From a virus: DNA of 26,434 nucleotides. Below are positions 159-25,860 of the stretch, one piece after another. Both the position numbers and the translations under genes were made by a program. The stretch spans positions 1-26,434 of IMG/VR virus record IMGVR_UViG_3300028025_004488; one strand, written 5' to 3'. The notes beneath the pieces were generated by a model. That model was given only the letters and a program-made list of their open reading frames with translations. It did not search any database and was not told where the DNA came from. How positions within the stretch are numbered: the stretch's first letter is position 1; the number at the start of each line of letters is the position of its first letter.

Positions 159-1883
159 ATGGCAGAAACTCTAATATCACCAGGCGTATTAGCAAGAGAA
201 AATGATAATTCATTTGTTGCTCAAGGTCCCGTAACTGTTGGTGCTGTTCTTATAGGCCCAACTGTAAAAGGACCTGTAGAAATACCCACAGAAATTACTT
301 CATACTCCCAGTATCAACAAATTTTTGGCACTACACTTTCAAGCGGCAGCCCAGCCCAAACTTATACTTACTTTACTTCTATAGCGGCGTATAATTACTT
401 TATTAATGGAGGTACTTCATTATTAGTAGCTCGTGTTGTAACAGGATCTTATACCTCAGCTACAAGTAGTTTAATTGTAAGTGCTAGTGGAGCAACAACC
501 CCAGTATTTACTTTAGAAACAATTTCTGAAGGAGTTATCACTAACAGTTCAGGATCTGAGGATGCAATAGGTGCTTTAGCAAATGGTACATCTAATAACC
601 TTAGATGGCAAATAGTTAACTCAAATACATCATCAGGTACATTTGACTTATTAGTTCGCCAAGGTAATGATAATAGTGTAGAACCAACCATATTAGAAAC
701 GTTCCAAGGTTTATCATTAGATCCTTTTGCTTCCAATTATATAACTAAAATGATTGGAGATCAAAAGTATACTCTAAGAACAGACTCAGTAACTGCAACT
801 AAATACTTACAACTATCAGGTAGTTTCCCTAACCAATCAGCTTATATAAGAGTTAAATCAGTTAACCTGACTACTCCTAATTATTTTAATAACGCTGGAA
901 CTCCAAACCCAATTTATACTGGTTCATTACCTATAGTTAGTAGTGGATCATTTGGTGGTGCTGTTGGTGATATTAAAGCTGGTGCTAATTTCTATCAAAA
1001 TATTAATGGTACAGATACTCAAGGATTAACTGGTGGATGTTATGATGATATGATCTCATTATTAGCAAACCAAGATGATTACAAATATAATGTAATGCTA
1101 ACACCTGGTTTATATAATGTTGATTATACTTCCCAAATGACTCAAATCATATCTAATACTCAAAATCGTGGAGACGCTATTTATGTAACTGATATGGTAG
1201 CTTATGGAGCGTCTAGTGTAACAACAGTTACAGGAGAAGCCTCTAAAAGAAATACATCATATGCAGCTACATATTGGCCTTGGGTTCAAGTTCAAGACCC
1301 AGACTCAGGACAAAATGTATGGGTACCAGCTTCAACTATGATAGGTGGAGTATATGCTTATAATGATAGTGTTTCTGAACCATGGTTTGCACCAGCCGGT
1401 ATAAACAGAGGTGGATTAAGTACTGTAATTAGAGCTGAAAGACGTTTACCACAAGGTGATAGAGATACTTTATATAATGGAAAAGTAAACCCAATTGCTA
1501 CATTCCCAGGAACTGGAGTAGTAGTATACGGACAAAAAACATTACAAACTAGAGCAAGTGCTTTAGATCGTGTGAATGTTCGTCGCTTGTTAATTGCTCT
1601 TAAGAGTTATATTTCTCAAGTTGCTAACAACTTAGTATTTGAACAAAATACAGCTGCTACAAGAAATAACTTCTTAGCACAAGTTAATCCATATTTAGAG
1701 TCAGTTCAACAAAGACAAGGTTTGTATGCTTTCCAAGTAATAATGGATGATACTAATAACACACCAACAGTAATTGACCAAAATCAAATGGTAGGTCAGA
1801 TATATCTTCAACCAACTAAAACTGCTGAGTTTATCTATTTAGATTTCAATATTACACCAACTGGAGCTACATTCCCAGCATAA
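159..1883 (+). CDS. gp18: Contractile tail sheath protein (T4 gp18-like)
   Basis: This is the subunit of the contractile sheath that surrounds the tail tube and shortens on infection. The 574-residue product is a little shorter than T4 gp18 (about 660). The N-terminus has the family opening SPGVLARENDNSF followed by GAVLIGPTVKGP. The C-terminal half is the conserved sheath core: a WVPAS/GGVYAYND segment, PAGINRGGL, ALDRVNVRRLLIALKSYI, and the final strand region with QIYLQPTKTAEFIYLDF. The middle (about residues 90-330) is Ser/Thr/Gly-rich and probably the variable surface domain. The ATG lies 24 bp after a TATTTATA box. The tube gene follows directly, the usual 18-19 order. Identity is firm; the middle domain boundaries are estimates. 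Confidence 0.96.
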   Translation: MAETLISPGVLARENDNSFVAQGPVTVGAVLIGPTVKGPVEIPTEITSYSQYQQIFGTTLSSGSPAQTYTYFTSIAAYNYFINGGTSLLVARVVTGSYTSATSSLIVSASGATTPVFTLETISEGVITNSSGSEDAIGALANGTSNNLRWQIVNSNTSSGTFDLLVRQGNDNSVEPTILETFQGLSLDPFASNYITKMIGDQKYTLRTDSVTATKYLQLSGSFPNQSAYIRVKSVNLTTPNYFNNAGTPNPIYTGSLPIVSSGSFGGAVGDIKAGANFYQNINGTDTQGLTGGCYDDMISLLANQDDYKYNVMLTPGLYNVDYTSQMTQIISNTQNRGDAIYVTDMVAYGASSVTTVTGEASKRNTSYAATYWPWVQVQDPDSGQNVWVPASTMIGGVYAYNDSVSEPWFAPAGINRGGLSTVIRAERRLPQGDRDTLYNGKVNPIATFPGTGVVVYGQKTLQTRASALDRVNVRRLLIALKSYISQVANNLVFEQNTAATRNNFLAQVNPYLESVQQRQGLYAFQVIMDDTNNTPTVIDQNQMVGQIYLQPTKTAEFIYLDFNITPTGATFPA

Positions 1884-1920: not shown

Positions 1921-2409
1921 ATGGCAATACTAGACGCAAACGAAATATTTTTCACAGCATTTGAACCAAAACAAGCTAATAGATTTATCCTTTATATGGA
2001 TGGAGTACCTAGCTATATAATTAAAGGAGTAAATGGTGTAAATTTAACTCAAGGTGAAGTAACATTAAACCATATTAACGTACAACGTAAAGTTAAAGGT
2101 AAAACGGTATGGGGTGATATTCAAATGACATTATTTGATCCAATTACTCCATCTGGAGCCCAAGCTGTAATGGAATGGGTTCGTTTACATCACGAATCAG
2201 TAACAGGTAGAGATGGATACTCTGACTTTTATAAAAAGGATTTAGTAATAGATGTATTAGGACCTGTAGGAGATGTAGTAAGTGAATGGATTCTTAAAGG
2301 CGCATTTGTTAAAGATGCTAATTTTGGTGATTATAACTGGGATACTGCAGACACCGCAGTTAATATCACAATGACTTTAGCCGTAGATTACTGCGTATTA
2401 AACTTCTAA
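1921..2409 (+). CDS. gp19: Tail tube protein (T4 gp19-like)
   Basis: This is the major subunit of the inner tail tube, which stacks as hexamers around the tape measure. At 162 residues it is almost exactly the length of T4 gp19. The sequence fits the family: N-terminal EIFFTAFEPKQANRFILYMD, a central KVKGKTVWGDIQMTLFDPI strand pair, WVRLHHESVTGRDGYSDFYKK, and the C-terminal DTADTAVNITMTLAVDYCVL. It follows the sheath gene, the standard order in contractile tails. Its 3' end is closed by a strong intrinsic terminator about 20 bp downstream, so high-level tube transcription should be largely separated from the next gene. Confidence 0.95.
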   Translation: MAILDANEIFFTAFEPKQANRFILYMDGVPSYIIKGVNGVNLTQGEVTLNHINVQRKVKGKTVWGDIQMTLFDPITPSGAQAVMEWVRLHHESVTGRDGYSDFYKKDLVIDVLGPVGDVVSEWILKGAFVKDANFGDYNWDTADTAVNITMTLAVDYCVLNF

Positions 2410-2430: not shown

Positions 2431-2460
2431 AGAGCTCGCATTTTGCGAGCTTTCTTTTTT
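2431..2460 (+). terminator. Rho-independent terminator after the tube gene
   Basis: The arms AGCTCGCA (2433-2440) and TGCGAGCT (2444-2451) are perfectly complementary around a TTT loop, and the stem can be extended by one G-T and one A-T pair. A T-rich tract runs to 2460. It is by far the clearest GC-rich hairpin in the window. A TATTTATA box begins only 3 bp after it. Confidence 0.9.
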
Positions 2461-2463
2461 GAA

Positions 2464-2471
2464 TATTTATA
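2464..2471 (+). promoter_or_regulatory. Late-promoter-like TATTTATA box after the tube terminator
   Basis: TATTTATA lies 3 bp beyond the terminator tract and ends 11 bp before the ATG at 2483. The terminator-then-box order is what is expected if the box restarts transcription for the repetitive protein gene. Confidence 0.6.
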
Positions 2472-2482
2472 ATAAAATAATT

Positions 2483-3742
2483 ATGGGATTATTAGAATTA
2501 TTACAACAAGGTCAAACTACATTAAGCGCAGGAAGTTTTCCTGGTGATACCCCTATTAATGATCCTCAATCTGGATTCATACAAGAAAATTCACCTACAA
2601 ATACATATGAAAGTGGAATAATAGGCCAACCTGATAATGGAAGTATATTAGTAGATACTTTACCAAACACAGGATTAGATAATACTGTAGCAAATCATGA
2701 TCCTAATAAACCTATACCTCAACCAAGTATATATTTTCCCCAATTATCTAGAGGAGAATTTGGTGGGGCATCAGACAGTTATATTCAAAATTATGGCCCT
2801 GAGTCTACTTACTTAGATACTACACCAATCCAAACTTCAAATAGTCCCCAATTACCTACTTTAGAACAAACTGGCTTAGATAATACAGATGATAATTCTA
2901 CATCAAATATTCCTACTCCAAACAGCATTAGTGCCCCTACTAACTATGGTAATGTACCTGTTTCCCCTCAAGTTCAAATGGGTGAATTTGGAGGAGCACC
3001 CTCCCAGTACCAAACAACTTATACTCCTGATCAAACATATTTAGATCAGTATAATACATTAGTTGGAGATACTAATTCTCAACTTAATACATTAAATGAA
3101 ACTGGCTTAGATAATACTGATAATGGATCAGCTGAAACTACTATCACACCAGATAGCATAGCTTATCCTAATAATTACCCTGTTATTCCAAATGTAAGTT
3201 TAGGGGCATTTAACGGAGCACCATCTCAATATGAATCACTATATAATTCTAACAGTACATACTTAGACACATATGATGTTATTACAAATGATAGTACAAA
3301 TCCATTAAATAACAACCTAAATTCCTCAGGATTAGATAATACCTATCCTTCTGAAGCTGCTCCTACAGCTGAGATTCCATTTGACGGTACAGTTTATCCT
3401 GTATTCTCTTCAGGCCAATGGGGAGGAGCCTCACAATTATTCGAACAAAATTATGGCCCATCAGAAAACCAATACTATCCACCATTTGTAACTACTTCAA
3501 ATACAGATTTATTAAGTCAACAATATGATAGTTTATCTAAAACTGGATTAGATGTTGATAATGAAAACGCAATCCCAACTACTGATATCGTAGTAAACCC
3601 AGACAATATCACAGTTTACCCAGCATCTAATGTTACTAGTATCACAGGTAGTGCCCCTCAACCTTTTAATCAAGTGTGGAAACCTATAAAAAGATATTAT
3701 AATGACTATATTAAACCATTAAAAGATCAAAATCTAGTATAA
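2483..3742 (+). CDS. Repetitive protein, probable virion component (function unknown)
   Basis: I do not recognise this family. The 419-residue product is built from about five degenerate units of 67-77 residues. Each carries a GEFGGA-type motif, then an SQY...Y...TYLD segment, then TGLDNT. TGLDNT-type motifs lie near residues 63, 130, 207, 282 and 354, the last degenerate (TGLDVD). The protein is rich in Asn, Pro, Ser, Thr and Gly, lacks Cys and has no signal peptide or membrane segment. The last 30 residues are different and basic/aromatic (KPIKRYYNDYIKPLKD). An upstream in-frame TTG at 2459 would place the start inside the terminator tract and across the TATTTATA box, so the ATG at 2483 is chosen. 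Its place between tube and tape-measure genes suggests a tail-associated role; this is inference. Confidence 0.85.
   Translation: MGLLELLQQGQTTLSAGSFPGDTPINDPQSGFIQENSPTNTYESGIIGQPDNGSILVDTLPNTGLDNTVANHDPNKPIPQPSIYFPQLSRGEFGGASDSYIQNYGPESTYLDTTPIQTSNSPQLPTLEQTGLDNTDDNSTSNIPTPNSISAPTNYGNVPVSPQVQMGEFGGAPSQYQTTYTPDQTYLDQYNTLVGDTNSQLNTLNETGLDNTDNGSAETTITPDSIAYPNNYPVIPNVSLGAFNGAPSQYESLYNSNSTYLDTYDVITNDSTNPLNNNLNSSGLDNTYPSEAAPTAEIPFDGTVYPVFSSGQWGGASQLFEQNYGPSENQYYPPFVTTSNTDLLSQQYDSLSKTGLDVDNENAIPTTDIVVNPDNITVYPASNVTSITGSAPQPFNQVWKPIKRYYNDYIKPLKDQNLV
2525..3562 (+). repeat. Five degenerate ~70-77-codon repeats within the repetitive protein gene
   Basis: The start-of-unit motif recurs as GEFGGA (twice), GAFNGA, GQWGGA and a divergent first copy (GSFPGD). 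The end-of-unit motif TGLDNT recurs at codons starting 2669, 2870, 3101, 3326 and 3542, a spacing of 67, 77, 75 and 72 codons. Conservation is mainly at protein level; only the short GGATTAGATAATAC-like core is well kept in DNA. This indicates old duplications under protein-level selection. Confidence 0.8.
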
Positions 3743-3797: not shown

Positions 3798-4529
3798 ATG
3801 GAAAACAAATTTAAAATGCCAACAGAGATTGTTGAGCTACCATCACAAGGATTAGTATATCCTGAATCATCACCTTTATCAAGCGGAAAAATAGAAATGA
3901 AATACATGACCGCTCGTGAAGAAGATATCTTAACTAACCAAAATTATATTAATAAAGGTATAGTATTAGATGAGTTAGTTAAATCACTCATTGTTTCTGA
4001 TATAAATTATGATGACTTAATTGTAGGTGATAAAAACGCTATTTTAGTAGCAGCTCGTATCTTAGGATATGGTAAAGATTATTCATTTAGTTGGGGTGGG
4101 GATCGATATGATATTGATTTAACAACAATTGATAATAATCCTTTAGACACTAAATTATTTAAAAAAGGTGTAAATGAATTTAATTTTACTCTTCCATCAA
4201 CAGGCATAAGTATTACCTTTAAATTATTAACAGGTCAAGATGAAAAGAAAATTAAAGGAGAAATTGAAGGACTAAAGAAGATTAATAAAAATTCTTCAAC
4301 AGATTTATCAACCCGCCTAAAATATATCATTACATCTGTTGATGGGAATAGAGACCAAAAAGACATTAGAGAATTTGTCGACACAGCTTTATTAGCTCGT
4401 GACTCCAGAGCATTAAGGGAGTATATAAAGGAGGTGCAACCAGACGTAGATCTGACCTTTTTTCCCAACCCAATCGGAGAAAAAGTTGCAATTCCCATTG
4501 GACTTAGCTTTTTTTGGCCTGACATCTGA
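3798..4529 (+). CDS. gp26: gp26-type baseplate hub/assembly protein; candidate tail assembly chaperone
   Basis: The 243-residue product has the opening typical of the T4 gp26 baseplate family: ELPSQGLVYPESSPLSSG, then IEMKYMTAREEDILTN, followed by a helical region (LVKSLIV) and an AARILGYG segment. T4 gp26 is about 208 residues and is needed for hub assembly. The C-terminus ends FFWPDI. The FFW codons are TTT TTT TGG, part of a run of seven Ts at 4509-4515. The 3' end overlaps the gp51-type frame by 44 bp from its first TTG, and the pair lies directly upstream of the tape measure. That is the position of frameshifting tail assembly chaperones in lambda- and Mu-type tails. Family assignment is good; a chaperone role is an inference from position. 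Confidence 0.8.
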   Translation: MENKFKMPTEIVELPSQGLVYPESSPLSSGKIEMKYMTAREEDILTNQNYINKGIVLDELVKSLIVSDINYDDLIVGDKNAILVAARILGYGKDYSFSWGGDRYDIDLTTIDNNPLDTKLFKKGVNEFNFTLPSTGISITFKLLTGQDEKKIKGEIEGLKKINKNSSTDLSTRLKYIITSVDGNRDQKDIREFVDTALLARDSRALREYIKEVQPDVDLTFFPNPIGEKVAIPIGLSFFWPDI

Positions 4530-4803
4530 GATAGTACCTCAATTACGTTCTAGCATATTCACTCAAATCCATGAAATTGTTTTTCATGGTCAAGGAGGAT
4601 ATGATTGGGAAACAGTTTATAATATGCCTATTTGGCTTCGTAAATTTACTTTTCATAAATTAAAAGAATACTACGAAAAACAAAACCAATCACAGAATAA
4701 TGATTTAGCAGCCCAATCTCAAAAAATTAAAGAGGGTAAAATAGATATCCCATCTCATCTAAAAGGAAAACTAAGTGATAGTAAAAGAGTAGCCAAGTAT
4801 TAA
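4486..4803 (+). CDS. gp51: gp51-type hub assembly protein; possibly the frameshift extension of the gp26-type protein
   Basis: This frame encodes a conserved-looking block, FTQIHEIVFHGQGGYDWETV then NMPIWLRKFTFHKLKEYYEK, then a polar tail ending VAKY. It resembles the short gp51-type hub assembly proteins of T4-like phages. The frame opens after a TGA at 4453-4455 and has no ATG before the conserved block. If expressed alone it needs TTG at 4486 (105 residues) or TTG at 4498. A GGAGA at 4476-4480 lies 5 bp before the first TTG and supports independent initiation. Alternatively, ribosomes on the gp26-type gene could shift +1 or -2 on the T7 run and read straight into this frame, giving a fusion of 334 or 335 residues. 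The sequence alone does not decide between the two. A terminator hairpin overlaps its stop codon. Confidence 0.7.
   Translation: MQFPLDLAFFGLTSEIVPQLRSSIFTQIHEIVFHGQGGYDWETVYNMPIWLRKFTFHKLKEYYEKQNQSQNNDLAAQSQKIKEGKIDIPSHLKGKLSDSKRVAKY
4509..4517 (+). other. Candidate programmed frameshift site (TTTTTTTGG)
   Basis: In the gp26-type frame this reads TTT TTT TGG, five codons before the stop. A -1 shift hits TGA at 4520-4522. A +1 or -2 shift enters the gp51-type frame, open to 4803. Homopolymeric T runs are slippery for ribosomes and RNA polymerase. A deletion of one T in the transcript would have the same result. The site is seen; its use is hypothetical. Confidence 0.45.
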
Positions 4804-4842: not shown

Positions 4843-7233
4843 ATGGCAACACCTTCTACCCCCGATCCTAAAGACATACAAAGACTAGAAGAACTTTATA
4901 AGAAAATTCAAGGTTATAGTGAGGCCGGAGCAAGAGCTGCTGCCCAACTAGCTATTAGTAATGGTAAAGCAGCTGATGAATTAATTCGATTAGAAGTAGC
5001 GTATAAAGATCTTATGAAAGATGTTAACACTTCTGTAACTTCTTTTACTAACATTGTTGATGAAATAAAAAATATGAACAGTGGTGTGAATAAAAGCATC
5101 GCTGGTTTTAAAGGATTAGAAAGTTTAGCTTCTAAATTAAATTATCACCAACAAGGAATAAATCGTTTATCTACCAAAGAATTAGAAACTTTACAGAAAA
5201 AAGCTAAACAAAAACAAAAAGATTTAGAAAATGCTAGAGACCTAAACGCATCTGAAATTGCTCGATTAGAAAATGTTCGTCATTTATCTCTTGAGCTTGA
5301 AGAACAATATAAAGATGCTAAAACATCTTATAATAATATACAATCCCAACTAACTGATAATAATAGTGCTTTACACACTTTTAATGATCAAATTGCAGAT
5401 GCTATTGATGGTACTAAAAGCATTGAAGATTCATTAGGATTAACTGGTACGATGATGAAAGGAATGAGTAAAATCCCATTCTTAGGTAACCTCCCAGGCA
5501 TGAATAGTGTTTTAGGCAATGTTGAAGAGAAAATAGCTAACATCCAGAATGAAACAGGCATGACTGTTTCTAAAACTAAAGCTATGGGTATGGCTTTTAA
5601 AGAAATGGGACCAGTTATAGGTAAATCTTTATTTGACCCATTATCTATGTCTTTATTTGTATTTAAACAATTAAAAGACATTTTCTTTGCTATAGACACA
5701 GGGGCAGGGGAGTTGGCTAAAGGTATGAATATGTCTTATAAAGAAGCTTTAGCTTTCCGAGATAAATTAGGAGAAATAGCCAAAGACTCTAAGGACGCTG
5801 CTCTTAATACAAAAGGAATACAAGAGAGTTATATGGCTATTGGCCAAGCTTTAGGAGCTAATGCTGATATAAATGAAAAAGAATTAAAAACTTTTACTAA
5901 ATTAAGAGAACAAGCTGGATTTACTAATGATGAATTAGTAAGTATGCAAAAGATGTCTTTAGTTACAGGTAAAAGTATAGAAGATACTACTAAAGAATTT
6001 TTAGGTGGAGCTACAGCTCTATCTGCTCAAAAAGGTTTAGCTATTAATGTTAAACAATTAATGAAAGAAACCGCTAATGTTTCTAATGCTACTAAATTAT
6101 CATTAGTTGGTGGAGCTAAAGGTTTAGCAGAAGCAGCTGTAGCAGCAAAAGCATTAGGTGTTGACTTAGGTAAAGTAAGTGACATATCAGGTAAATTGCT
6201 TAATTTTGAAGACAGCATATCAGCTGAATTAGAAGCAGAATTATTAACTGGTAAACAAATTAATCTTGAAACAGCTCGTCTAGCCGCTTTAAACGGAGAC
6301 ATGGCCACAGTAGCTGAGGAAATTAAAAAACAAATAGGCGGGTCAGCTGAATTCTCTAAAATGAATCGCATCCAGCAAGAAGCATTTGCTAACGCTGTTG
6401 GAATGGGTAGAGAAGAATTAGCTAATTCATTAGTTGAACAAGAGGCATTACAAAAAGTAGGTGCTAAAACAGCTGAAGAAGCAAAGAAAAAATATGATTA
6501 TTTAATATCTACAGGTTTAACAGCTGAACAGGCTGCTTTACAATTAGGTGACGAACAATTAGCTAAACAATTTGAACAGCAAAATCTTCAAGAACGTTTT
6601 AATCAAGCTATTGAAAAACTAAAAGATACATTATCAACATTAGTTGATGGACCATTAGGTTCATTTATGGCTGGGTTAGCTGATTTATTAAATAATGCTG
6701 AAGTATTAAAAGGAATATTCTTAGCTATAGGTACTATATTAGCTACAAGAATGGTAGTTAGCTTAGCTACAGGTGTAGTAAGTATAATGGCATCTGTAGC
6801 TGGAGCAAGAGCATATAATCAAGCTTTAAACCAAAACTTAGGCAAAGAAGCAGCCCTTACAGCTATGAAAGTAGCTGGAGCAGAAGCATCAACTCTTGGG
6901 GCGGCAACTGTTCCCATTTTAGCGGGTATAGCAGCAGTAATGGCTGTTGTTGGTGGATTATATGCTTTAAAAGATGGAGCTGTTGATCCCAACGGTGGAT
7001 TAGTTGTTTCTAAACCAGAAGGTGGACTTGTAGCTCAATATGATAAAAAAGACTACATTGTAGGTACAACTAACAGACCAGGATCAGGTGGAGGAAGTGC
7101 GCCCATAGATTATGATCGTTTAGCAGCAGCAATGTCTAAAGTAAATGTATCACCTGTTGTGAACTTAGACGGAAGAAAAATATCAGATAATTCAAATGAT
7201 ATTACTAATAAATCGTCTGTTAAACTCCAATAA
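4843..7233 (+). CDS. Tape measure protein (T4 gp29-like role)
   Basis: This protein is expected to run down the tube lumen and set tail length. It has 796 residues. The first ~200 are long charged helices likely to form coiled coil (LEELYKKIQGYSEAGARAAA and the Lys/Gln-rich stretch after it). A mostly helical, Ala/Lys-rich middle follows. Two hydrophobic segments lie near residues 621-655 and 682-708, typical of tape measures. The C-terminus has a Gly-rich linker and DYDRLAAAMSKVNVSPVVNL followed by DGRKI, an ending seen in many tape measures. Using about 0.15 nm per residue, it suggests a tail near 120 nm. It follows the gp26/gp51-type pair and precedes baseplate genes, the expected position. 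Confidence 0.88.
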   Translation: MATPSTPDPKDIQRLEELYKKIQGYSEAGARAAAQLAISNGKAADELIRLEVAYKDLMKDVNTSVTSFTNIVDEIKNMNSGVNKSIAGFKGLESLASKLNYHQQGINRLSTKELETLQKKAKQKQKDLENARDLNASEIARLENVRHLSLELEEQYKDAKTSYNNIQSQLTDNNSALHTFNDQIADAIDGTKSIEDSLGLTGTMMKGMSKIPFLGNLPGMNSVLGNVEEKIANIQNETGMTVSKTKAMGMAFKEMGPVIGKSLFDPLSMSLFVFKQLKDIFFAIDTGAGELAKGMNMSYKEALAFRDKLGEIAKDSKDAALNTKGIQESYMAIGQALGANADINEKELKTFTKLREQAGFTNDELVSMQKMSLVTGKSIEDTTKEFLGGATALSAQKGLAINVKQLMKETANVSNATKLSLVGGAKGLAEAAVAAKALGVDLGKVSDISGKLLNFEDSISAELEAELLTGKQINLETARLAALNGDMATVAEEIKKQIGGSAEFSKMNRIQQEAFANAVGMGREELANSLVEQEALQKVGAKTAEEAKKKYDYLISTGLTAEQAALQLGDEQLAKQFEQQNLQERFNQAIEKLKDTLSTLVDGPLGSFMAGLADLLNNAEVLKGIFLAIGTILATRMVVSLATGVVSIMASVAGARAYNQALNQNLGKEAALTAMKVAGAEASTLGAATVPILAGIAAVMAVVGGLYALKDGAVDPNGGLVVSKPEGGLVAQYDKKDYIVGTTNRPGSGGGSAPIDYDRLAAAMSKVNVSPVVNLDGRKISDNSNDITNKSSVKLQ

Positions 7234-14414: not shown

Positions 14415-17030
14415 ATGCCTGGACCGTTTGATTTAACAGGTCAGAATATAGAGGATACATACCAACGTATTCTTCAAACTGATGGTACTTCCATATATAA
14501 TGGTACCGGTTCTTTATTTACATTACCTTCTACATTTCCATTTACTGGTTCCGCTTTAATAACAGGTAGTTTAGGAGTCACAGGCTCAACTTCAATACAA
14601 GGAACATTCAACCAAGGCTCAGCGTCATTAGCATCAGGATTATTTTCTCATGTTCAAGGATTAGCTAACACAGCCTCAGGCGATTATTCACATGCTGAAG
14701 GTCAATTAACAAAAGCAACTGGATCGTATTCACATGCTGAAGGGTATAATACAATAGCTAGAGGACTTAACTCACATGCTGAAGGTGTTGGCGCTCAAGC
14801 AATTGGAAACTATTCGCACGCAGAAGGAAGTAATACTCAAGCAACTAATAGTGGTTCACATGCAGAAGGAAGTAATACGATATCATCAGGAGCTAGCTCA
14901 CACGCAGAAGGAAATATTACTCAAGCAATTGGAGATAACTCACACGCAGAAGGAAATAGCACTCAAGCATCTGGATCTTATTCACACGCAGAAGGAGATA
15001 GTACTAAAGCAATTGGAATAGCATCTCACGCAGAAGGAGGTGGTGCTCAAGCAATTGGTGTTAGTTCACACGCTGAAGGATTCAAAACAATAGCATCTGG
15101 ATCCCATTCACACACTGAAGGTGTTAGCACTCAAACAACTGGATCCTACTCACATGCAGAAGGAGATACTACTAAAGCAATTGGAATAGCATCTCACGCA
15201 GAAGGTCAAAATACAATAGCATCTGGAAACTACTCACACACAGAAGGAGATAGTACTCAAGCTACTGGGAAAAATTCTCACGCAGAAGGAAATAGTACTC
15301 AAGCAATCGGAGAAGCTTCACACGCTGAAGGAAATACTACAATATCATCTGGATCCTATTCACACGCAGAAGGAGAAAGTACACAAGCAATTGGAGATAA
15401 TTCTCACGCAGAAGGTGGTAACACTCAAGCAATTGGAGCATTTTCACACGCGGAAGGTAATACTACTAAAACAGGAATTACAAATGCATACTCATCATCT
15501 GTATCTTCTGGAATTCTAACTTTAGACTCTTCATATGGTGATATAAGTGGAGAGTTTGCAACTGATAATAGATTACTCTTATATGATAATCCATTTGACG
15601 CTAATTATGGGAAAGCTACTTTTATTATAAGTCAATCCTATTTTTCATCTCCAAACACAATTGTAGAATTAGTTGATACAAGTGTAACTACTACAACAGC
15701 ATATGTAGGTAATTTAGATTATGGAGTAGCTAATTGGATTGGTGATCAAACTATACCTGGAGATTATTCACATACAGAAGGAACTAGTACAATAGCAATT
15801 GGAGATTACTCACATGCTGAAGGTGCTAGTACAATAGCAATTGGAGACTCTTCACATGCAGAAGGATCTAGTACAATAGCAATTGGAAACTCTTCACACG
15901 CAGAAGGTACTAATACCCAAGCAATTGGAGACGCTTCACACGCAGAGGGAACTAGTACACAAACAATTGGAGACTATTCACACGCAGAAGGAGATTATAC
16001 CCAAGCAATTGGTATTAGTTCACACGCAGAAGGTAGTGTTACCACAGCAATTGGATCCTATTCTCACGCAGAAGGTGCTAGTACAATAGCAATTGGAGAT
16101 TATTCTCACGCAGAAGGTACTAGTACAACTGCAGGTCAATTAGCATATGGAACAGACACACCTATAACCTCAGGTGTATTTGAATTAAATTCTGGGTATG
16201 GTAATTTGACATCATCATTTACCGCAGGTGTATTTATATTAATTAATGATACTCAAGGACAAATTAATGGGACACCAAATATATTCAAACTTGAAGTATT
16301 ATCCTCTACATACACTGGAACTCCTGCTACTCAAATAACATTAGTTGATACTAGTATTAATACTTCTAATAACAAATATCAAGTAGGTATATATGGTGAT
16401 TACAATCCTACATTAGCTGATGGATCAATTGGTAATTACAGCCATACAAGTGGAGAATCAACACATACCGTTGGTTTAGGATCTTCAACTGAAGGTATTT
16501 CTACTGAAGCATTAGGATACTATTCACACGCAGAAGGTGTTAGCACTCAAACAACTGGATATGCTTCACACGCAGAAGGTAGGAGCACTCAAGCTACTGG
16601 ATATGCTTCACACGCAGAAGGAGAAAATACAATAGCATCTGGATCCTATTCACATGCAGAAGGTAGTGCTACTAAAGCAACTGGAGACTACTCACACGCA
16701 GAGGGAGATTATACCCAAGCAATAGGAAACTATTCACACACTGAAGGTCAAGAGACAATAGCGTTAGGACAGTATTCTCACGCAGAGGGTTATAACACAA
16801 TAACATCAGCCAGCTACCAACACGTACAAGGTCAATGGAACGCCACATCACCTATACAATCAGCTTTTATTGTAGGTAATGGAACAGATGATGGTAATAG
16901 ATCAAACTTAATATACGCTCATGATTCTACAGTTGAAATAACAGGATCCTTAAATGTATCCGGAAATATAATCCAAAATGGAGTAGACTTAAACTCTTTA
17001 ATGATAGCTTATGCAATAGCGCTTGGCTAA
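14415..17030 (+). CDS. Tail fibre/adhesin with YadA-like SHAEG beta-roll
   Basis: This is a probable trimeric receptor-binding fibre of 871 residues. After a ~74-residue N-terminal attachment region (PFDLTGQNIEDTYQRILQTD, then GSALITGSLGVTGS) come about 39 units of 14 residues of the form GxxSHAEGxxTxAx, the left-handed beta-roll of YadA-type head domains. The units form three blocks: residues 75-352, 449-574 and 673-812. Between them lie two ~95-residue non-repeat domains that resemble each other: SGILTLDSSYGDISG... and SGVFELNSGYGNLTS..., each ending with an LVDTS strand. The C-terminal ~58 residues (FIVGNGTDDGNRSNLIYAHD...) are a typical fibre end. It begins 13 bp after the previous gene behind an A-rich leader. 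No S74 self-cleaving peptidase is seen. Confidence 0.88.
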   Translation: MPGPFDLTGQNIEDTYQRILQTDGTSIYNGTGSLFTLPSTFPFTGSALITGSLGVTGSTSIQGTFNQGSASLASGLFSHVQGLANTASGDYSHAEGQLTKATGSYSHAEGYNTIARGLNSHAEGVGAQAIGNYSHAEGSNTQATNSGSHAEGSNTISSGASSHAEGNITQAIGDNSHAEGNSTQASGSYSHAEGDSTKAIGIASHAEGGGAQAIGVSSHAEGFKTIASGSHSHTEGVSTQTTGSYSHAEGDTTKAIGIASHAEGQNTIASGNYSHTEGDSTQATGKNSHAEGNSTQAIGEASHAEGNTTISSGSYSHAEGESTQAIGDNSHAEGGNTQAIGAFSHAEGNTTKTGITNAYSSSVSSGILTLDSSYGDISGEFATDNRLLLYDNPFDANYGKATFIISQSYFSSPNTIVELVDTSVTTTTAYVGNLDYGVANWIGDQTIPGDYSHTEGTSTIAIGDYSHAEGASTIAIGDSSHAEGSSTIAIGNSSHAEGTNTQAIGDASHAEGTSTQTIGDYSHAEGDYTQAIGISSHAEGSVTTAIGSYSHAEGASTIAIGDYSHAEGTSTTAGQLAYGTDTPITSGVFELNSGYGNLTSSFTAGVFILINDTQGQINGTPNIFKLEVLSSTYTGTPATQITLVDTSINTSNNKYQVGIYGDYNPTLADGSIGNYSHTSGESTHTVGLGSSTEGISTEALGYYSHAEGVSTQTTGYASHAEGRSTQATGYASHAEGENTIASGSYSHAEGSATKATGDYSHAEGDYTQAIGNYSHTEGQETIALGQYSHAEGYNTITSASYQHVQGQWNATSPIQSAFIVGNGTDDGNRSNLIYAHDSTVEITGSLNVSGNIIQNGVDLNSLMIAYAIALG
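14637..15470 (+). repeat. 42-bp tandem repeat block 1 (about 20 units)
   Basis: Twenty near-identical 42-bp units encode GxxSHAEGxxTxAx. The DNA core TCACACGCAGAAGGA recurs with few changes. The array keeps frame throughout and should be prone to slippage or recombination in whole units. Confidence 0.9.
15759..16136 (+). repeat. 42-bp tandem repeat block 2 (9 units)
   Basis: Nine 42-bp units of the same type, with AGTACAATAGCAATTGGAGA repeated almost exactly in several adjacent units. They are flanked on both sides by non-repeat domains. Confidence 0.9.
16431..16850 (+). repeat. 42-bp tandem repeat block 3 (about 10 units)
   Basis: About ten units. The first two (GNYSHTSGESTHTV, GLGSSTEGISTEAL) and the last (ASYQHVQGQWNATS) are degenerate, as expected for caps of a beta-roll. 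Confidence 0.85.
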
Positions 17031-24582: not shown

Positions 24583-25860
24583 ATGTATTGGTTAGTAGAA
24601 ACTAAAGATCAATTAAGAGAATTTTTTAATCAAGACTATAAAGAAGTCTTTGTTGAGATTATTCCTTACCATAATCAAATCCACCCTGCCTTAAATGATG
24701 TATGTTTAGTCTATATTAGACCAACTTATGACTCTAAAGGATATATGTTTTGTATTGATCACAGTGAAACAATGTCACTTGGAAAAACATACATTGAAAA
24801 ATTACTAAAACATATAGATACAGTTTATATTAGGGATAAAAAATCATTCCTATACTATTTTCAATTAAATAAAGTAACAGACATTTCTTCCATTAAGTAT
24901 GTAGAAACACCATCTGAACCTGTATTTGACATCTTTTATAGAAAACATCCTAACAAAACGGATATTAATAAAATAATTCCAATAGTTAAGCATTATGAGG
25001 TTTGTGAGAATATTTATACTCAACTCGAAGATGTTTTAAAAACACCTAAACCAGAATATGTTAAATTCTATAATAAAGGTGCTTTAGCATTTTTTGGAAT
25101 TGAAAAGAACGGAATTAAAATTAATGAAGACAAGTTTTATAAATACTATGAACCAAATAATAGCCTATACTCGATACGCGATAGTAGAGTGTTTACTCAA
25201 TATAACCTCAATACTACAACCAGACGCCCATCCAATGCCTTTAATAGCATTAACTTCGCTGCTCTAAAGAAAGACAACCACTCAAGAGCGAGCTTTATAC
25301 CACAAAACAATGAATTTCTTGAAATTGATATTTCTGCATACCATCCGACTTTGGCTGGACAACTGGTTTCTCATGAATTTGATAACCCTGATATTCACGC
25401 TGATTTTGCTAGCATGTATGGCGTAGACTACGCTAAAGCAAAAGAATTAACATTCAAACAATTATATGGGGGAGTATTTGAAGAATACAAATCACTCCCA
25501 TTCTTCCAGAAAATTCAAACATATGTTCAAGAACAATGGAAATTGTTTAATGAACAAGGATTTATTAACACCCCTATATCAGGTTATAAATTTGAAAAGG
25601 ACAAGTTAGAGAATATGAATCCACAAAAGTTATTTAATTATATCTTGCAAAACCTAGAAACATCAACAAACATAGGTATACTACTTAAGATTCATAAGAT
25701 ATTAACAGGCAAAAATACTAAAATAGTTCTATACACGTATGACTCATTTCTACTTGATTGGGATGAAGATGAAGAGCAAGAATTAGAACAGATCAAAAAT
25801 ATATTTAAGGAAATGAAGTTATCAATAAAAATTAATGGAGGGAAGAATTATGACTTTTAA
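24583..25860 (+). CDS. Miniature, divergent family A DNA polymerase
   Basis: The 425-residue product has the family A polymerase motifs in order. An NGIKIN segment (about 175-180) matches the usual E-x-x-G-V-x-hydrophobic-D region. TTRRPSN starts at 212 (like TGRLSS), with INFAAL and RASFIP in place of NLQNIP and R-x-x-FIP. Motif A is LEIDISAYHP with D249. DIHADFA follows at 270, then motif B K287-x3-F291-x3-Y295-G. Motif C is TYDSF with D387. Both catalytic Asp are kept. HDE of motif C is YDS, and the first Arg of the O-helix is Tyr283. Klenow fragment is ~600 residues; here most of the thumb is missing. Residues 1-150 look like a 3'-5' exonuclease fold, but the DxE site reads EII. T4-type phages normally use a family B polymerase. 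Confidence 0.82.
   Translation: MYWLVETKDQLREFFNQDYKEVFVEIIPYHNQIHPALNDVCLVYIRPTYDSKGYMFCIDHSETMSLGKTYIEKLLKHIDTVYIRDKKSFLYYFQLNKVTDISSIKYVETPSEPVFDIFYRKHPNKTDINKIIPIVKHYEVCENIYTQLEDVLKTPKPEYVKFYNKGALAFFGIEKNGIKINEDKFYKYYEPNNSLYSIRDSRVFTQYNLNTTTRRPSNAFNSINFAALKKDNHSRASFIPQNNEFLEIDISAYHPTLAGQLVSHEFDNPDIHADFASMYGVDYAKAKELTFKQLYGGVFEEYKSLPFFQKIQTYVQEQWKLFNEQGFINTPISGYKFEKDKLENMNPQKLFNYILQNLETSTNIGILLKIHKILTGKNTKIVLYTYDSFLLDWDEDEEQELEQIKNIFKEMKLSIKINGGKNYDF

Follow-up and report, generated by a model that had tools for sequence, protein, structure and literature searches.

Two overlapping reading frames, one of gp26 type and one related to the C-terminus of gp51, lie just ahead of the tape measure gene in the viral DNA studied here, and the second has no ATG before its conserved block. 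How is this second frame expressed, and which proteins does the pair encode? The window, i.e., the whole stretch that was analyzed, comprises 26,434 nt of one strand (IMG/VR record IMGVR_UViG_3300028025_004488, positions 1 to 26,434). Our analysis indicates that, very probably, one gene gives rise to two tail assembly chaperones by +1 programmed frameshifting, with predicted forms of 243 and 334 residues. This conclusion was drawn from sequence alone, without protein or reporter data.

The locus and its two reading frames

All window features described here are on the + strand. The gene order is tail sheath (159..1883; phrog_23, E 2e-76), tail tube of the gp19 type (1921..2409; phrog_4542, E 1e-22; PF06841, E 3e-5), an ORF without assignment, ORF1/ORF2, and tape measure (4843..7233, directly 3' of ORF2; phrog_2335, tail length tape measure, E 8.7e-5). 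The chaperone genes of the G/GT type are located between the tube and tape measure genes, and ORF1/ORF2 occupy this position. The same order, with the tape measure gene next, was found in immuto, SP-15, and LIS04.

ORF1 (3798..4529) starts with ATG and encodes a gp26-type protein of 243 residues ending in ...GLSFFWPDI, the putative short form of the chaperone, which matched PF12322 (E 1e-3) and phrog_150 (E 2e-9). Its 3' end reads CTT AGC TTT TTT TGG CCT GAC ATC TGA. Within this end, the conserved shift signal CTT AGC TTT TTT TGG CCT GAC spans 4503..4523, and the slip site, a run of seven Ts, spans 4509..4515. The wild-type site sequence is TTTTTTTGG. ORF2 is in the +1 (= -2) frame relative to ORF1, is open from 4456, and ends at 4803. 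Following a +1 shift, with GGC (4516) as the next codon, it would contribute 95 residues (4516..4803; GLTSEIV...KRVAKY) corresponding to the C-terminal ('T') domain of gp51. The fusion would have 334 residues by a +1 shift, a predicted rather than measured length, and 335 by a -2 shift. The only start-like codons in the ORF2 frame before its conserved block are TTG 4486 and TTG 4498. An earlier sequence-only reading had described the ORF1 ending, the seven Ts, and the second frame open from 4456 without an ATG, and we confirmed all three. GGAGA at 4476-4480 and TTG at 4486, named there as a possible independent start, are also present.

The unassigned ORF between the tube and gp26-type genes (2459-3742) is rich in Ser/Thr/Pro/Asn and contains four degenerate 33-nt repeats (TGLDNT); it showed no family match and is missing from the equivalent place in immuto. 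Farther downstream, 14415-17030 encodes a large protein, probably a tail fibre, in which SHAEG-type repeats are numerous (YadA head repeat, PF05658, E 6e-12). Two ORFs that overlap it in another frame (14776-15021 and 15883-16089) are likely by-products of the repeat. A 425-residue ORF downstream of the tail genes (24583-25860) had no Pfam match.

Conservation of the site and direction of the proposed shift

Two scans of viral contigs yielded 160 loci; with the window and its cultured relatives included, 159 were testable. ORF2 was offset by +1 in 159/159, and a -1 frame open for 50 codons beyond the ORF1 stop was found in 0/99 non-redundant loci. These counts indicate that the +1/-2 frame relation proposed in the sequence-only reading is not due to chance. 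The site read TTT TTT TGG CCT GAC in 116 loci, TTT CTT TGG CCT GAC in 34, and TTT CTA TGG CCT GAC in 4; five single variants account for the remainder beyond these 154 (TTT-(TTT/CTT/CTA)-TGG-CCT-GAC). In one locus (L141), TAC replaces TGG and the remaining site is kept. The arrangement displays two marks of a G/GT-type pair, an overlapping second ORF without a start and a conserved slippery sequence at the overlap.

Among the 99 non-redundant sequences, the LSFF(W)PD stretch formed the strongest synonymous-constraint peak in the whole gene (z 4.8), beginning two codons 5' of the Ts. The Phe codon of the site was TTT in 98/98 sequences and the Pro codon was CCT in 99/99; TTC was common at other Phe positions (e.g., 28/97 at another Phe column). 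Variability tracked the ORF1 codon positions upstream of the site and the ORF2 codon positions downstream, where diversity in the ORF2 frame was coding-like (0.20/0.11/0.32 at codon positions 1/2/3). In an ORF2 alignment of 32 relatives, GG, P, and WLR were invariant. The opening of the ORF2 frame upstream of the shift (4456..4515) is probably untranslated in that frame: the codons just 5' of the site were free of synonymous constraint (z -2 to 0), and relatives carry ORF2-frame stops at many upstream positions, as near as 3 codons to the site, with a TAA one codon ahead of the slip codons in L070. From the slip site to the end of ORF1, no relative had a stop in the ORF2 frame. Thus, use of the ORF2 frame begins at the T-run, the pattern that a ribosomal shift at this position predicts.

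An alternative, which we consider improbable, is that ORF2 is made as a free small protein, starting at TTG 4486 or TTG 4498 or through reinitiation once ribosomes have terminated at the end of ORF1; in cyanophages it is annotated as such a free protein. The GGAGA-TTG arrangement in the window (4476..4488) could serve such initiation, TTG at -32 is frequent in relatives, and KVP40, W14, phiM12, and S-PM2 have an ATG that overlaps the gp26 stop or comes after it. However, TTG 4486 (-44) occurs in only a minority of relatives, so that this start was judged non-conserved, and the frequency of the -32 TTG is attributable to Ile/Val-Gly codons. From the ORF2-frame stop to 12 codons past the site, 7/98 non-redundant +1 loci contain no ATG, GTG, or TTG whatsoever; the same absence was noted in the span of 11/41 non-redundant S-PM2-type cyanophage loci, and the -1 ORF of PA5oct lacks start codons entirely. 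An own start would also leave the constraint on the T-run unexplained, and it is at odds with the unconstrained ORF2 frame upstream of the Ts and with the domain being covalently part of gp51 in T4. The sequence-only reading had suggested weighing the T-run/FFW codons and the offset against an independent start; the former were conserved in 159 loci and the latter was not.

The +1 frameshift itself was then compared with other ways of reaching the same frame. The first Phe codon and the following base were TTT_T in 69, TTT_C in 29, and CTT_T in 1 of the 99 loci, and +1 re-pairing is possible in all of them. A -2 shift, as in Mu, with a product of 335 residues, could be accommodated by TTTTTTT, which permits -2 re-pairing, but it has little in its favor beyond the window itself: the TTT CTT TGG or TTT CTA TGG sites of 29/99 non-redundant loci allow no -2 re-pairing, whereas +1 on TTT_C works. 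Slippage of RNA polymerase on the seven Ts, placing a fraction of mRNAs in the other frame, is very unlikely: the homopolymer of 7 in the window is a short run for such slippage, immuto-type relatives break the run (TTTCTTTGG) yet keep the arrangement, and cyanophage-type loci have only six Ts and a C, a classic ribosomal heptamer. The +1 shift is preferred because both of these alternatives fit poorly at the TTTCTTTGG or TTTCTATGG runs (29/99). Of the '+1/-2' alternative put forward earlier, we therefore retain +1, on the basis of the TTT CTT TGG variants, and not -2.

The CTA variants favor movement of the tRNA on the first slip codon rather than the second, an assignment that remains a prediction. 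A search for a stimulatory RNA structure 3' or 5' of the site found none (mean MFE z -0.5). According to a 2016 review (PMC5009743), stimulatory signals also seem to be missing from the frameshifts of certain tailed phages.

The gp26/gp51 family in T4 and other lineages

T4 gp26 (208 aa) and gp51 (249 aa) both matched PF12322 and phrog_150, and matched each other (E 2e-6). T4 gp51 is composed of a gp26-like protein with an extra C-terminal domain (phrog_634), and cyanophage 'gp51' consists of this domain. Judged from their sequences, T4 gp26 and gp51 are paralogues. ORF1 of the window matched phrog_150 (E 1.9e-9); its PF12322 score of 19.2 bits was under the cut-off of 24.5, and RM378, GXN1, LIS04, and LR756508 were above it. 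The link between ORF1 and the gp51 family rests on phrog_150/PF12322, because ORF1 and strabovirus gp51 gave no significant match when their whole profiles were compared directly. For ORF2, the direct profile match to T4 gp51 was weak (E 0.03). The ORF2 profile matched gp51 of the -1 clade described below (E 2.9e-5), and the profile of the latter matched residues 200-245 of T4 gp51 (E 3.4e-6). Via this clade, homology of ORF2 to the gp51 C-terminal extension holds at the level of profiles. The earlier label 'gp51-type' for ORF2 holds for the C-terminal part and not for the whole protein, as T4 gp51 also has a gp26-like part. Weak Pfam MRP-L51 matches to ORF2 were judged spurious.

Two full copies were present in T4 and KP15. 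Every complete phage of the single-gene type that we examined had one; in SP-15, this copy is accompanied by an additional weak match (E 0.03). Genes 26 and 51 of T4 are divergently transcribed, and the slip run is lost from gene 26 of T4, KP15, and their relatives (GAG TTC TTT GAG and CAA TTT TTA in straboviruses). Campylobacter phage CP81 (L246) carries two gp26-like genes side by side on one strand, of which the second is extended at its C-terminus, and is apparently a two-gene form in a lineage far from T4. It has been reported that gp51 is absent from the virion (PMC3004832). The gp26 and gp51 of phage Konradin were annotated by the depositors as tape measure protein assembly chaperones.

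The two ORFs were also modelled as separate chains. The ORF1 model (pLDDT 89) gave its best re-aligned PDB matches, over residues 1-96, with YqbN (3klu, Z 6.4) and the HK97 tail assembly chaperone gp13 (2ob9, Z 5.1). These Z values are modest, and Foldseek alone was non-significant (E >1); only 7/681 re-aligned chains reached Z 2. As far as a predicted model allows, the two best matches agree with the independent positional argument. The viral models retrieved for ORF1 were largely baseplate hub, gp26, and gp51 proteins. The ORF1 profile had no match among the sequences of solved structures, and a plasmid search gave no match. The chaperone-pair idea of the sequence-only reading is supported by the gene position, by gp26 and gp51 being paralogues in T4, and, more tentatively, by the modest resemblance of the ORF1 fold to HK97 gp13 and YqbN. 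The ORF2 model was of low confidence (pLDDT 63), with PDB matches at Z <5, and was not used. Third behind the two chaperones, ORF19 of a Vibrio cholerae PICI-like element (5ir0) matched the gp26-type model with Z 4.3; a tail-chaperone-like protein may be encoded by a phage satellite.

The +1 overlap of the window also occurs in RM378, Mel-JY01, immuto, SP-15, LIS04, GXN1, and LR756508. RM378, at about 25% identity, retains TTT TTT TGG; it lacks a start, and a stop lies shortly before the site. A search of viral contigs for its relatives recovered only RM378 itself. The gp51 C-terminus, or the equivalent frame, was found in the -1 frame in S-PM2, Melnitz, HTVC008M, phiM12, KVP40, Vibrio 1.081.O, Delftia phiW-14, Atu_ph07, PA5oct, RAS14, XacN1, and LR756511, each of which carries T TTT TT(T/C). 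A scan with S-PM2 gp26 gave 80 loci, with the canonical heptamer T TTT TTC in 80/80 and the gp51 C-terminus at -1 in 80/80. Different offsets between relatives had been named beforehand as grounds for refutation. The window's group shares the same +1, but other T4-type lineages have -1; this is not refuting, because, as among the classical G/GT phages, the slippery site of each lineage suits its own offset.

Several loci showed further particulars. An ATG overlaps the gp26 stop (TAATG/TGATG), 3' of the slip heptamer, in KVP40, phiW-14, and phiM12 (L237, L239, and L236), which may make a free C-terminal product too and use both shift and reinitiation. In Gram-positive phages (L085, L086, and L183), CCCGATT, common to both frames, follows FF. 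The sites of this clade are TTT TTT C, TTT TTT A, and TTC TTT C, followed by CCCGATT or similar; the exact +1 shift codon may differ from that of the window's group, and is not fixed, nor is it in LR756508. Public annotation of L081 (4175-4285), L183 (2321-2440), and L185 (2391-2513) shows only a truncated ORF of 36-40 aa near the gp51-C frame, which is consistent with gene callers seeking a non-existent start.

In a tree of the family, T4-type gp26 and gp51 fell into one group near the -1 lineages, with several mode switches across the family; the root is uncertain, as are the long CP81, RM378, and KP15 branches. We consider it likely that gp26/gp51-C frameshifting is the rule throughout the T4 superfamily, that its direction has changed several times, and that gene duplication took its place in T4-type phages (Tevenvirinae and relatives) and probably in Campylobacter phages. 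The +1 mode would then be that of Bacteroidota and Gram-positive phages, and the -1 mode that of cyanophages, vibriophages, and rhizobial and jumbo phages. The same review counts T4 as an exception to G/GT frameshifting (PMC5009743); in the reading given here, T4 would be a split G/GT and not an exception. The direction of evolution is inferred.

Proposed mechanism and relation to known systems

In the proposed mechanism, most ribosomes would read the gp26-type ORF to its TGA, yielding the 243-residue, gpG-like short form. A minority would slip +1 at UUU UUU U(GG), where the peptidyl-tRNA on UUU re-pairs one base downstream. With GGC as the next codon decoded, the 95-residue C-terminal domain of gp51 type would be appended to give the 334-residue, gpGT-like long form. 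The shift itself is inferred, as are its efficiency and the product ratio. By analogy to the lambda model (PMC5009743), the part common to both forms may coat the product of the next gene, the tape measure protein, and the additional domain of the long form may bring in subunits of the tail tube or connect the tape measure with the baseplate hub; these binding partners are inferred. T4 gp26 and gp51 would descend from the same pair, with two duplicated genes in place of the frameshift.

Like lambda G/GT, the gp26/gp51-C pair lies after the tube and before the tape measure, is predicted to comprise a short form and a frameshift-extended long form, and has overlapping ORFs with a slippery run and a shift direction that varies among lineages; relatives of lambda G/GT shift by +1 in HSTV-2 and by -2 in Mu. 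The fold match of ORF1 to HK97 gp13 is modest, and no sequence similarity of ORF1/ORF2 to lambda-type proteins was found. Unlike lambda G/GT, the pair in the window belongs to the PF12322/phrog_150 family and has a UUU-UUU/CUU-UGG +1 signal. The baseplate hub assembly chaperones gp26/gp51 of T4 are of the same family, with a short form ending in FF and a long form with a C-terminal extra, but they are encoded by two divergently transcribed paralogous genes that have lost the slip site. A two-gene chaperone form has been described in 0305phi8-36 (PMC2147016). As in T4 26/51, short and long chaperones come from two related genes without a frameshift; unlike T4, this phage is of another lineage, and the assignment was an inference based on paralogy, position, and secondary-structure prediction. 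The cyanophage and vibriophage 'short gp51' (PMC3037559) has a C-terminal domain homologous to that of ORF2; it was annotated as a free short protein, and we read it as a -1 frameshift extension of gp26. In the prfB +1 frameshift (CUU UGA), as at CTT TGG of the immuto group, a YUU_U codon allows re-pairing by +1. Here, however, a sense codon rather than a stop follows the slip, and no upstream Shine-Dalgarno-like stimulator was seen.

Frameshifted tail chaperones and the two-gene form were already known. No report of a frameshift joining gp26 and gp51 was found in the literature searched, whose coverage was incomplete, and an earlier mention is not excluded.

If the frameshift is real, gp26/gp51 would be the tail assembly chaperone pair of T4, the model contractile phage, in which the roles of these proteins have been unclear. 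Cyanophage gp51 was reported to be without its first ~200 residues (Sullivan et al. 2010, Fig. S3; PMC3037559); the frameshift from gp26 would supply the ~200 residues that appear to be missing. It would also account for the truncation or omission of this gene by automatic annotation in many phages (about 36 aa in immuto; 39 aa in SP-15). The family would then show one problem solved in nature by a +1 shift, by a -1 shift, and by two genes, and the need for a fixed short:long ratio would therefore be testable in T4 with amber mutants in 26 and 51.
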